NCBI GenBank assembly: GCA_021810525.1
Contig: JAJZIP010000003.1
Location: 1-53,972 of the forward strand
Length of the DNA stretch: 53,972 nucleotides
Direction: 5' to 3'
DNA from: Actinomycetes bacterium
Lineage (GTDB): Bacteria; Actinomycetota; Acidimicrobiia; Acidimicrobiales; Acidimicrobiaceae
The translations under genes were made by a program, and so were the position numbers. The notes under the pieces are model-generated. The model made no database searches, was not told the origin of the DNA, and saw only the letters and a list, made by a program, of their open reading frames with translations. Below, one piece after another: positions 15,246 through 19,104 of this stretch. Position 1 is the stretch's first letter. Each line of letters opens with the position of its first letter.

Positions 15246-16550
15246 CTACAGCCATCCGATGACTGTCTGAATGAGAAGCACCGATGAAAGAGCGGCAATC
15301 CCGACTACGACCACTGAAGCAACCTTCCTAAAAATCCGTCCATTCACCGCATCTCCAAGAATGCTTGCCCTGTTGGACAGAACCACAATAAACGTGAGGA
15401 TAATTGGGGTCAGCAGGCCTTGAAGCACCTGGGTGAATATCAAAAGGGTGATCAAATTGACAGGCACGAGGGAAACAGCCGCCCCCAGCAGGACCTGGGC
15501 AGAAAAAAGCCCTAAGAACAAGGGCGCCTGCCTGAACTTTCGAGAGACCGACCTTTCTACCCCAAGGACCTCAGCTATCGCATACGAAGTGGAAAGAGGC
15601 ACCACAGCCCCGGCCAGCGCTGATGCGCCAAGCAAGCCGATTGCAAAAAGTATCACCGCATCGGAGCCTGCCACGGGGCTGAGTGCCAGAGCAGCCTGCT
15701 TGGCGGACTGCAGTGGTCCGGTTCCACCTATGGCCGCAGCAGTGGCGATGATGATGAAGATCGAGATGATGTTGGCGAATATCGCACCGCCGACAGCATC
15801 GGCACGTTCCAGTGGGAACTCATCGGGCGAGATGCCCCTGTCCACCACACCCGCTGCTGCATAAACCTGCATGTACGGTGAAATAGTAGTTCCTATGAGG
15901 GCAACACCAAGGAATACGAAGCTCTGAGAAGCTATAAAATGCGGAAAGACCGTCTGGGTAGCCACCTTATGCCAGTCGGGGTGCCCGACCACGGCTGCTA
16001 TCGGATAGGCGAAAAACGCAAGCGACATTACCAAAAAGACACGTTCCGCGTAGCGATAGGTGCCAAATAGCACGAGCCCCCAGATGAATATGGCGGACAG
16101 CGGGATAGAAATATACCGGGATACCCCGAACAGCTGGAATGCCGCTCCAATGCCCGCAAACTCGGACACCACTAGACCAACATTCGATGCCGTCAACGCG
16201 ATCATGGCCAGCCCAGCCAACCTGATCGAGAACTCCTCACGGATCAGTGCTGCCAAACCCTTGCCGCTGAACACTCCAAGACGTGCCGACATCTCCTGGA
16301 CAACGACGAGGCCGATAGTCACCATTACCATGAAGAAGAGGGTCCGATAGCCGAACTGCGAGCCAGCTGACGAATAGGTCGCTATGCCGCCCGCGTCGTT
16401 TCCGGCATTAGCAGCTATCAGACCCGGCCCGGCGGCAGCAAGGTAGACCCAGAAGGTTCTCTTCCTCCTCGATGTCGCATTTGCAAGGCGTGAGCCAATG
16501 CTGCTGTGGCTCTCGGCATTCAATTTGCGCTTCGGCCCGGCTGAACTCAC
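15246..16550 (-). CDS. Nramp-fold divalent metal transporter, probably Mg2+-type (NRMT-like)
   Basis: A polytopic inner-membrane protein with about 11 hydrophobic segments and the Nramp (SLC11) fold. Two metal-site motifs differ from transition-metal MntH proteins. TM1 has NAGNDAGGIATYS (DAGG, about residues 52-55) instead of DPGN. TM6 has GTTISPYMQVY (about 220-230), where MntH has a Met and His (M-P-H). Loss of that Met is known in Nramp-related magnesium transporters (NRMT), so Mg2+ uptake is a reasonable inference. GTG 16550 is chosen because GGAGG lies eight bases upstream; an upstream GTG at 16565 has the purine run too close. It is followed after four bases by the glycosyltransferase gene, and preceded by a TnpB relic that separates it from the MgtE-N/CBS gene. 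Confidence 0.85.
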   Translation of the reverse strand: MSSAGPKRKLNAESHSSIGSRLANATSRRKRTFWVYLAAAGPGLIAANAGNDAGGIATYSSAGSQFGYRTLFFMVMVTIGLVVVQEMSARLGVFSGKGLAALIREEFSIRLAGLAMIALTASNVGLVVSEFAGIGAAFQLFGVSRYISIPLSAIFIWGLVLFGTYRYAERVFLVMSLAFFAYPIAAVVGHPDWHKVATQTVFPHFIASQSFVFLGVALIGTTISPYMQVYAAAGVVDRGISPDEFPLERADAVGGAIFANIISIFIIIATAAAIGGTGPLQSAKQAALALSPVAGSDAVILFAIGLLGASALAGAVVPLSTSYAIAEVLGVERSVSRKFRQAPLFLGLFSAQVLLGAAVSLVPVNLITLLIFTQVLQGLLTPIILTFIVVLSNRASILGDAVNGRIFRKVASVVVVGIAALSSVLLIQTVIGWL

Positions 16551-16599
16551 CTCGGCCTCCTCCACTCCCTTAGGGAAGGAGATCCGCTTCTGCTCCAGG

Positions 16600-17200
16600 A
16601 CCTCGTGCCGCAGCCCTTTTCGAGGGGTTGATGCTTCATCTGCCTCCTGCGCTTAGCATGGAAAGGCCTTGCGTGCGCCATCCCTCTGCGTCTTAGAATT
16701 GTGAATCCAGCAGCTGAAACGTTTTTGGGTCCAGATATTGACTCGCAGACTGCACGCGGGGAAACCACTTTCGTTCGAGAGTTCTTTACGGTACCTCTGG
16801 CGAGGGGCTGGGTGAAGCATGCATGCGGGACGTCTAATCGGTCTGGGGTGATTTGGACCGACGCGCGAGCTTGCGTCCATGGCCAAAGGCGCTTCGGTTG
16901 AAACCTGATCCATCCGGCCTTTGGAAGATGAGCCTCGCCGAATTCCGCTTCCAGTTTCCGCACCCAAAGATCATCTATGTTAAGGCCATCGCTTTGTCCG
17001 GCTTTACACCATCTCGGCCGACGAGGAAGCTGTGGCTTTGCCCACCAGCTCCGAAATTGGCGGTCCAGCTCAACAATCAGGCTTCGCCGGACCAAAGAAG
17101 AGCCATGGGCCAGCCAGTCGAAGGCCGTTTCGGCTGCGGTTGGTCCATTGACTTGGTTGAGACGCGTAATCTTTTGGGATTTTTGCATGTCTTGAAGGCT
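16600..17200 (-). pseudogene. tnpB: Decayed TnpB (IS200/IS605 or IS607-type) gene
   Basis: The minus-strand translation contains a clear N-terminal/middle part of a TnpB-family RNA-guided nuclease: FDWLAHGSSLVRRSL, DRQFRSWW, RRPRWCKAGQSDGLNI, VRKLEAEFGEAHLPKAGWIRF. In intact TnpB this is the segment around RPxWRKAG and VPKVGWVRFR before the RuvC domain. The frame loses similarity near ITPDRL; no catalytic Asp/Glu RuvC motifs or zinc finger are found. The N-terminal RNA-binding start is also missing. Boundaries are approximate. No TnpA gene and no clear element ends were found. It sits between the Nramp-like and MgtE-N/CBS genes. Confidence 0.75.
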
Positions 17201-17462
17201 TTTCGTTACTGAAGACCCGTTATGCAAACAAAACCCGAGTCTGAACAGTGGTACACGGCGATCGCCAAAAACTCTGTACCGGGCTGCAATGGTTGGTGGA
17301 TGCTAATGTCGGTCACTCCAACAACTGAGTTTGTCACTTATGACTCCAGAGTCTCGAGCGGCTGCACCGCTGGCGCCAATTTTCCCGGTCCAGAATCAAG
17401 CTATCTCACTCAGATCGCTCAAACCTGGGGACAGCATGGTAAAGCGAATTGCTTGGTGCCTA
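17201..17462. other. Spacer between TnpB relic and MgtE-N/CBS gene
   Basis: No supported gene. A plus-strand frame (17222-17596) lacks a ribosome binding site, matches no family and runs antisense into the MgtE-N/CBS gene. The stretch may be leftover element sequence or the omega-RNA-like end of the lost transposon, but no conserved structure was identified. Confidence 0.35.
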
Positions 17463-18797
17463 TCATGAAAGCAGGCGCGGAAAATGGAACCTTCCACGCT
17501 CCGGTGAAAGTGCATCGATTATGTCATCAGCCAAGATCCTGCCGATTGGCCGATGATCTGCTACCACAACGATTGAAAAGCGCCTTGAACCGATGAGCTT
17601 CTCCGCAACCTCGTCCAAGGGTGCGTCGGGCTCGACAACGGTCGAGTCATGCGTTATCAGCTCCGACACCAGCGTCTCATCTGCGGCGAGTGCAAGATCG
17701 AAAAGTGAGGCCTCTCCCACGAGAAGCCCTTCTTCGTCAACCACAAGCACCCCGTCGATCTCCTCTTTGTGCTCTCTCTGGGAGCCAAGCAGTAATTTGA
17801 CATCCCCGACGGTCTCGTCGGGTAGCGCTTTGACGAACATCGTCGTCATCACTCCACCAGCAGTATCCGCTCGGAATTCAAGAAGATTTCCTATAGTGAG
17901 TGCAGCGTCGGGCTCCATGAGCGCGAGAATCTCATCACGCTCGTCCTCATCGAGGTCCCGTAGCGCCTCGGCAGCTTCATCTGGCTCCATATACGAAACC
18001 AGATCTGCAGCAACCTCCGGCTCCGACTCCCTGAGCAGGGCCTCGCGTTCCTCGCGCTCCATCTCTTCGACGGCATCTGCGGCTGTCTCTAGGTCAAGGG
18101 CTGACAACAGTCCCTGCCTCTCGGTCCTGCCAAGGTCTTCCAGAAGGTCGGCTAGCTGACTTGGGCGCAGCCTCTTGATGGCCTGTTGAGAGCCTCGAAG
18201 CCTTACGGCTCCGGTATGCTCGTCGAATGGGGCTACAGCAGCCCAATCAAGCACCTTTTCGGGAGTTGCGGTAGATCTGAACTTTGAAGGTCCAAGCCGC
18301 CTCAGAAGTGAATGCATGCTCACGTCCACACCCACCAGCCTCAGCCTTCCCAAAGCATGGGCCAAGAACACGTCTGCAGCTCTCAGGACCTGGACACCAT
18401 CGACATCAACCAGCTGATGATCGAGGATCTCTTTGCCCAAGAGCACCTCTCCCGGACGCTGTGAAAAGTCTCTCAGGTCAAGTTTCGCTGAAGAAAGAAC
18501 CACCGATTCGCGAGTGAACGTCTCGACTCTTTCAATGTCTACAAACGTGAGTCTGCGGCCTATCTTGACCAGTATCCCGGTGACAGGCGGGTAGTCCGCG
18601 TCTTGCGACCACCGCACTACGACATCGACGATTCTGCCGATCTCAGACCCGTTCTGATTCATAACCGGTTTGCCGGAAATACCCGCAAAAGAAATTATCG
18701 ACTCCCGTATGCTTTTAATAGTTAAAAGCCTCTGAGATCTCGACTCTCGCAGGCTTCTTATTCTGCGTGGATTCAACAGAGTTGGCTTTCGAGCCAT
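17463..18797 (-). CDS. Soluble PRC-barrel + MgtE-N + CBS protein (no transporter domain)
   Basis: 444 residues, with no hydrophobic membrane span. In order: a PRC-barrel-like region (residues 35-95, PVMNQNGSEIGRIVDVVV), a second beta region to about 185, an MgtE N-terminal superhelical domain (about 200-320: LRPSQLADLLEDLGRTER, repeated EP-x-x-A-A-D-L-V and EPDEAAEALRDLDEDERDEILALM), and a CBS pair (about 320-440) with TAGGVMTTMFVKAL, as in MgtE. In MgtE these cytosolic parts sense Mg2+ and gate the channel; the five-helix pore is absent here. Inferred role: a Mg2+-sensing regulator of the Nramp-like transporter encoded downstream. The start ATG 18797 has GGAGGG seven bases upstream. A leader ORF and hairpin precede it. 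Confidence 0.85.
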   Translation of the reverse strand: MARKPTLLNPRRIRSLRESRSQRLLTIKSIRESIISFAGISGKPVMNQNGSEIGRIVDVVVRWSQDADYPPVTGILVKIGRRLTFVDIERVETFTRESVVLSSAKLDLRDFSQRPGEVLLGKEILDHQLVDVDGVQVLRAADVFLAHALGRLRLVGVDVSMHSLLRRLGPSKFRSTATPEKVLDWAAVAPFDEHTGAVRLRGSQQAIKRLRPSQLADLLEDLGRTERQGLLSALDLETAADAVEEMEREEREALLRESEPEVAADLVSYMEPDEAAEALRDLDEDERDEILALMEPDAALTIGNLLEFRADTAGGVMTTMFVKALPDETVGDVKLLLGSQREHKEEIDGVLVVDEEGLLVGEASLFDLALAADETLVSELITHDSTVVEPDAPLDEVAEKLIGSRRFSIVVVADHRPIGRILADDIIDALSPERGRFHFPRLLS

Positions 18798-18843
18798 TGG
18801 ACTGCCCTCCCTTCCCGTGGAGAGACGTCCTAAGAAATCAACC

Positions 18844-18863
18844 GCTGGATCAAACCTTCCAGC
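18844..18863 (-). promoter_or_regulatory. Hairpin between leader ORF and MgtE-N/CBS gene
   Basis: GCTGGA and TCCAGC form a perfect six-base stem with an eight-base loop in the minus-strand transcript, 14 bases downstream of the leader ORF stop and 47 bases before the gene start. It is followed by a weakly T-rich stretch (ggttgatttctt). It could serve as an attenuator or only be local structure. A perfect 14-base palindrome, CTGATCTAGATCAG, lies at 18867-18880 over the leader stop codon. Confidence 0.35.
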
Positions 18864-18876
18864 CTGCTGATCTAGA

Positions 18877-18963
18877 TCAGAAGACCTCGACCGGTGGTGA
18901 AATCCGGAGGGACGTCATGAACGAATAGATGAACTCGGTACTGTGAGGTTCACTAGGCTTCAT
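18877..18963 (-). CDS. Candidate leader peptide (28 residues) upstream of Mg2+-sensor gene
   Basis: A 28-codon frame starting at ATG 18963 with a near-perfect ribosome binding site AAGGAGGTGA (18979-18970), nine bases from the core to the start. The peptide begins MKPSEPHSTEF and ends SPPVEVF, with four prolines, including an adjacent pair at residues 23-24. Proline-containing leader ORFs are known to control Mg2+ transporter genes in enterobacteria and mycobacteria by coupling ribosome stalling to transcription. Here the leader ORF lies 79 bases before the MgtE-N/CBS start. Function is inferred from position, ribosome binding site strength and composition only. Confidence 0.5.
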   Translation of the reverse strand: MKPSEPHSTEFIYSFMTSLRISPPVEVF

Positions 18964-19104
18964 TGACTTTCACCTCCTTAGCTCAGCCAATATGACGCGG
19001 CAATAGCTACCAAGTTCACAATAGTTGATCGAAAAGGCCACACTACGCGAAATACTGGAGATTACCTCGGTAAATTTAGCAAATTACCCTCGAGTACACT
19101 TGCT

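Follow-up and report, generated by a model that had tools for sequence, protein, structure and literature searches.

An actinobacterial nrmT operon with a stand-alone MgtE-type sensor, a probable role in Mg2+ uptake and a conserved leader open reading frame

We analysed a stretch of 53,972 nt (hereafter the window) from contig JAJZIP010000003.1 (positions 1 to 53,972) of assembly GCA_021810525.1, a 91%-complete genome of the Acidimicrobiaceae, and in it a minus-strand locus composed, in order of transcription, of a short upstream open reading frame (uORF), a pore-less MgtE-like sensor and an Nramp-related transporter, nrmT. The uORF occupies 18877..18963 and comprises 28 codons, MKPSEPHSTEFIYSFMTSLRISPPVEVF, running from an ATG at 18963 to the stop TGA, with the core GAA CCT CAC AGT ACC (E-P-H-S-T); its strong Shine-Dalgarno (SD) element, GGAGGTG, lies at 18971..18977 and has an equivalent upstream of homologous operons. 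A preliminary description of this locus ended at 18963, which is the ATG of the uORF, and did not mention the uORF itself. The sensor gene (17463..18797) encodes 444 aa, in which an N-terminal PRC-like beta region is followed by an MgtE_N domain (Pfam; residues 210-309, 17871..18170) and a CBS pair (about residues 313-431, 17505..17861). A 912-bp intergenic stretch (16551..17462, assigned to neither strand) separates it from nrmT (15246..16550), which encodes a divalent cation transporter of 434 aa. The longest reading frame of the transporter begins at 16565; its true start is most likely the GTG at 16550, since this matches the start conserved in the nearest relatives. We read this locus as an actinobacterial nrmT operon for Mg2+ uptake, in which the sensor would slow NrmT in trans and the leader would tune expression, and give this reading a probability of roughly 60%.

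The transporter is, by its sequence, a member of the Nramp-related Mg2+ transporters (NrmT/NRMT). It matches the Pfam family Nramp with 254 bits, and its top match in the PDB is EleNRMT (7QIA, E 2e-97, residues 32-436), the best MntH, DraNramp, reaching 2e-18. In a tree of 53 proteins the five MntH references split off with a support of 100/100 and the window's protein fell inside a 19-member clade, which we term type I (100/100); type I in turn shares a branch (97/92) with EleNRMT, a protein from an Alicyclobacillus plasmid, a second actinobacterial group termed type II and three unpaired proteins. The alignment gives the metal site as N-D-A-G-G in transmembrane helix (TM) 1 and G-T-T-I-S-P-Y-M in TM6, compared to NDAGG and GTTIAPWM in EleNRMT and MDPGN and GATVMPHV in DraNramp, so that the DAGG and SPY motifs noted in the preliminary description are present as it stated. 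NRMTs are defined by a DxxG-TxxA/T motif (PMC8806188), of which the window's TM1 carries the DxxG as D-A-G-G, and its TM6 (T-T-I-S) keeps the Thr and places a Ser at the Met position; most type I relatives read TxxT. The DPGN and MPH motifs, both present in four plasmid MntH references, are missing from the window's protein, and the tree, the motifs and the PDB ranking together rule out a canonical MntH.

As to the sensor, Pfam recognized the MgtE_N domain (69 bits) and two CBS stretches, in line with the preliminary description; the PRC-barrel also named there stayed under the Pfam cut-off (17.9 vs 21.2 bits), the N-terminal region being beta-rich and PRC-barrel-like. The claim that this protein has no pore stands: the MgtE pore domain (PF01769) was found neither in the sensor nor anywhere else in the 91%-complete genome, and the predicted fold (mean predicted local distance difference test score, 74.8) contains no membrane helix. 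A hidden membrane domain was thus ruled out by the Pfam scan and the predicted fold. The model of the sensor best matches the cytosolic part of MgtE (2oux, E 2e-19; Mg2+-bound 2yvy, E 1e-17), and alignment to Thermus thermophilus MgtE showed that acidic residues are kept at sites Mg4 (D91 as D273 and D247 as D425), Mg6 (D95 as E277) and Mg7 (E59 as D241). Among 12 aligned sensors D273, D425 and D241 are invariant Asp, and the position of E277 is Asp or Glu. In MgtE, mutations at the Mg4, Mg6 and Mg7 sites impair the closure or the conformational change that depends on Mg2+ (PMC5882242). The sensor therefore appears largely to keep the inter-domain Mg2+-sensing part of MgtE and to have lost the part that contacts the pore, as would be expected if its output surface had been re-purposed. 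Shorter pore-less MgtE-N/CBS proteins that lack an NrmT also occur among relatives in the class, and in the five checked (L192, L195, L200, L201 and L202) they directly precede a DUF1003 membrane protein, which suggests more than a single membrane partner for stand-alone MgtE sensors.

The adjacency of sensor and transporter, from which the preliminary description had argued, is conserved far beyond the window. We sorted the Nramp genes of 119 sampled genomes of the class into type I, type II and sensorless others. All 13 type I genes, the window's included, have a sensor directly upstream (12/12 homologues), and all 11 type II genes adjoin a sensor, one pair (G014) being convergent. When the type I alignment was used to scan GTDB genomes, 80 named loci were obtained, and the sensor lies directly upstream of the transporter in 79 of the 79 that could be assessed, the contig of the 80th stopping within the transporter. 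The paired loci span Acidimicrobiia, Acidithrix, Streptomyces, Kitasatospora, Pseudonocardia, Mycolicibacterium and Georgenia; the Alicyclobacillus plasmid has the same gene order, its genes being annotated 'CBS domain-containing protein' and 'Nramp family divalent metal transporter'. Among viral contigs no relatives were found. The window's own genome carries a second pair, of type II (locus L001, G000 contig C226:1-3411), with a transporter of ~550 aa, an NDAGG / TTVAPWQ site and ~370 bp between the genes. The preliminary description knew of no characterised example of such a pairing, which was mistaken: Shin et al. reported NrmT together with a stand-alone MgtE-N protein in 2014, including an operon of Clostridium acetobutylicum, and proposed a cytoplasmic feedback in trans (PMC4072509). 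The pairing is hence known since 2014 and the trans-feedback idea is published as a proposal. Two side observations concern the loci collected: L131 and L167, GTDB records of metagenome-assembled genomes titled 'Bifidobacterium breve', hold nrmT operons that best match Acidimicrobiia, and these titles are probably wrong; and the sensorless Nramp-like genes L068, L078, L079, L082, L083, L085, L089 and L093 form a third group, a supported clade of its own with a DDPSG / TTxSPYL site.

Is Mg2+ the substrate? According to Shin et al., an M-box upstream marks the Mg2+-specific members, though it is not needed for NRMT membership. An M-box of 123-135 bits (threshold 44) precedes the sensor in 17 type I operons of Streptomyces and Kitasatospora, and another, of 145 bits, lies about 120 bp before the sensor of the Alicyclobacillus plasmid operon. 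CorA was not found in the window's genome (91% complete), nor was any P-type ATPase over the Mg2+ cut-off, CorB/C-type proteins not having been searched for; with neither CorA nor an MgtE pore, some Mg2+ importer is needed. Across the class sample an MgtE pore is present in 2 of 23 paired and 72 of 96 unpaired genomes (Fisher P 5e-9, which is overstated because the genomes are related), and CorA shows no such contrast (11/23 vs 43/96). Of the characterised relatives, the riboswitch-controlled NrmT of C. acetobutylicum imports Mg2+ (PMC4072509) and EleNRMT carries both Mg2+ and Mn2+ (PMC8806188). A role in Mg2+ uptake is thus supported by the clade, by the M-boxes of sister operons and by the missing CorA and MgtE pore. 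The preliminary description had drawn Mg2+ from the TM6 motif, which is not safe ground alone, because an EcoDMT whose site was switched to NRMT residues gained no Mg2+ transport (PMC8806188) and because of the behaviour of Acidobacterium capsulatum NrmT described below.

A number of observations weigh against a Mg2+ uptake operon gated by its own sensor. This NrmT of A. capsulatum, which has an MgtE-like partner, fully rescued a Mn2+-transport defect and needed millimolar Mg2+ to rescue a Mg2+ defect, and its co-expression with the partner gave no better Mg2+ rescue (both PMC4072509); because of these results, Mg2+ specificity and gating are features that we only infer for the present locus, as we do the contact between sensor and NrmT. 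The Ser of TM6 stands where published NRMTs carry Ala or Thr (PMC8806188). No M-box or other Rfam RNA came near threshold in the window, the pattern in which CorA and MgtE are missing lacks phylogenetic independence, and 19 unpaired genomes are likewise without either protein. In the sensor, site Mg5 of MgtE is altered, D250 being kept as D428 and D226 being Arg in all 12 aligned sensors, and the plug helix, which in MgtE bears the Mg2/Mg3 acids (E258, D259), is absent. Lastly, the gap between the two genes measures about 47 bp in the nearest relatives (L104-L109, with transporter cores that share 88-91% identity with that of the window) versus 912 bp here, and co-transcription is therefore not assured in the window; the insert of ~0.9 kb, seen in the window's copy alone, may uncouple sensor and nrmT. 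Its reading frames have no Pfam match, it has no inverted repeats and no copy of it was found in its own genome or in 19 relatives, on which grounds a known mobile element or a hidden gene was rejected. The sensor's C terminus is intact beside it (RGRFHFPRLLS). No promoter for nrmT was found inside the insert; a single weak site turned up in this region, within the sensor gene, and 1.7 are expected by chance.

We then turn to the leader. In a comparison of seven loci from close relatives, the SD, the start and the first ten or so codons of the uORF proved to be the best conserved part of the leader. Among the 80 type I leaders, 38 carry GGAGG(T/C)G, a start codon and a core of the type GAACCYCCNAGT, 9 or 12 nt separate start and core, which share one reading frame in all 38, so that the uORF is very probably translated. 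Selection on the peptide alone ([EDQ]P[PHS]S) yielded 37 loci, which are non-independent yet come from several orders. In every one of these Ser is encoded by AGT and the first Pro by CCC or CCT (37/37); in the sensor and transporter genes alongside, AGT makes up 4.4% of Ser codons, and CCC and CCT together make up 42% of Pro codons. The uORF recurs in ten of the remaining 12 type I loci of the class, all with AGT, and type II operons have no uORF before the sensor. Searching 247 genomes of the class for the exact leader pattern gave nine matches (reversed control, 0). Eight of these precede a sensor; the ninth (L209, G129:C18:62709-62742, minus strand), an EPPS uORF (MKLEPPSTWRS...) from another genome of the family to which the window belongs, precedes a type II nrmT. 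A close form of the pattern had a single match in 396 phylum-wide genomes, before a sensor (control also 1).

No Rfam family was found at the uORF leader. When 55 type I loci were scanned for M-boxes, 17 had an M-box and 24 an [EDQ]P[PHS]S uORF, with an overlap of 0; this exclusion is confounded with taxonomy, since every M-box among the 55 is in Streptomycetaceae. The M-box leaders of Streptomycetaceae have a conserved uORF of another sequence, MDSSPGHSRP..., in which AGT occurs three times; in 13 of 14 loci its SD follows the M-box at a distance of 62-70 nt. The Streptomyces nrmT leaders L140, L172 and L179 match the M-box of L169 in part, being remnants, deletions or assembly gaps. The fold of the window's leader was unremarkable (z -2.07), and folding of the 38 leaders, which gave no shared structure, did not support a hairpin of SD and anti-SD as the explanation of the leader at every locus.

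By analogy with known leaders, the uORF leader probably helps to switch the operon on when Mg2+ is scarce, and on the bioinformatic evidence at hand it is apparently undescribed. Whether it represents a class is a further step, and one that we put slightly short of even odds: an undescribed Mg2+-responsive leader would control nrmT operons across Actinomycetota through an [E/D/Q]-P-P-S core with fixed codons (CCY for the first Pro, AGT for Ser), Mg2+ would be sensed through the behaviour of the ribosome at these codons, and the leader would take the place of the M-box, with the sensor providing feedback at the protein level.

Each part of this reading has a competitor. The transporter could be a member of the NrmT clade that chiefly imports Mn2+ (or Fe2+), its partner sensing Mn2+ or the overall divalent status; we consider this unlikely. 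It would agree with the preference of A. capsulatum NrmT for Mn2+ despite an adjacent MgtE-like protein, with the transport of both Mg2+ and Mn2+ by EleNRMT and with the non-canonical Ser of TM6, but sister type I operons in Streptomycetaceae stand under Mg2+-sensing M-boxes, and a genome that has neither CorA nor the MgtE pore requires an importer of Mg2+. Nor do we think it likely that the sensor leaves NrmT ungated, buffering or delivering Mg2+ or acting on another membrane partner, in which case adjacency would reflect shared regulation only. A chaperone role was also mentioned by Shin et al. (PMC4072509), the sole published test had no visible effect of co-expression, and the DUF1003 neighbours of sensors without an NrmT point the same way; against this, adjacency is near-absolute across orders, and the residues that drive gating in MgtE are kept in the N and CBS domains.

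The leader, in turn, might be an RNA element that tunes translation by pairing of its ACCYCC core with the SD (GGAGGT), with no Mg2+-sensing peptide, a possibility that we regard as real yet somewhat doubtful. Either version of the core, ACCTCC or ACCCCC, is indeed complementary to the SD of the uORF with at most one mismatch, folds of this kind occur at some loci (e.g. L129, L141 and L157), and it is codons, not residues alone, that are conserved. Such an element, however, should be hard to square with the lack of a structure common to the loci, with the constant reading frame and the two spacer lengths, and with an AGT codon that lies outside the SD-complementary core.

Taken together, the operon that we favour, one for Mg2+ uptake with feedback, might work as follows. 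NrmT would import Mg2+ (and probably some Mn2+) in a largely hydrated form through the Nramp fold, a small polar residue standing in for the Met of TM6. The sensor, like the cytosolic part of MgtE, would bind Mg2+ between N and CBS domains, and at high cellular Mg2+ would dock on the inner face of NrmT and slow it, a feedback of the MgtE type exerted in trans on an unrelated carrier. Expression would be tuned by the leader, through the M-box in Streptomycetaceae and, in the window, probably through Mg2+-dependent translation of an acidic/proline uORF in the manner of MgtL.

The pair has been little studied, and its adjacency in 79/79 loci makes it a good test bed for the regulation of a carrier in trans by the sensor of a channel. 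What would be new here is the leader uORF, and with it a variant of the nrmT operon whose regulation is apparently undescribed. If the uORF responds to Mg2+, it would give Actinomycetota a second Mg2+ switch, this one based on a peptide, as MgtL is in enterobacteria.

Compared to the known NrmT/NRMT proteins with an MgtE-like partner (PMC4072509, PMC8806188), the window's operon shares the clade, the DxxG of TM1, the loss of the TM6 Met, the adjoining stand-alone MgtE N-terminal protein and the proposed cytoplasmic feedback, whereas it differs in having Ser and not Ala/Thr in TM6, a uORF leader and not an M-box, and the intergenic insert of ~0.9 kb. With the MgtE channel the sensor has in common the fold and most inter-domain Mg2+-binding acids; unlike the channel it has no pore and no plug helix, carries Arg in place of D226, possesses an extra N-terminal PRC-like region and would act in trans on an Nramp fold. 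MntH and the window's transporter both belong to the LeuT-fold family and to Pfam Nramp, and are set apart by DAGG in place of DPGN, TTISPY in place of ATVMPH and separate clades (100/100). For the leader, the nearest likeness is MgtL. In Escherichia coli, drop-off of the ribosome at EPDP of MgtL at low Mg2+ turns on mgtA (PMC11282234), and in the Salmonella leader CC[C/U] Pro codons need m1G37, which is made by the Mg2+-dependent TrmD (PMC6335274). The window's form likewise is a short uORF before a probable Mg2+ transporter, with an early acidic/proline motif and m1G37-dependent CC[C/U] Pro codons, and because it combines an early acidic residue, prolines and CC[C/U] at the first core Pro, the logic of MgtL could apply to it; the Streptomycetaceae uORF departs from this form, with SPGHS and CCG/CCC at that position. 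The likeness is one of motif and position, and the window's uORF has in addition an invariant AGT Ser codon, which is explained by neither the MgtL-type nor the m1G37 model, nor by any known mechanism that we considered. A further parallel, drawn by description only, is offered by Mycobacterium tuberculosis, in which an M-box controls the conserved uORF2/Rv1805A, called mycobacteria-specific and located before pe20/rv1535, with a conserved Pro at position 7 (PMC12810186). Here too a small conserved uORF with a Pro near position 7 lies in a leader that is probably Mg2+-regulated, and the uORF of Streptomycetaceae (13 loci) likewise follows an M-box.

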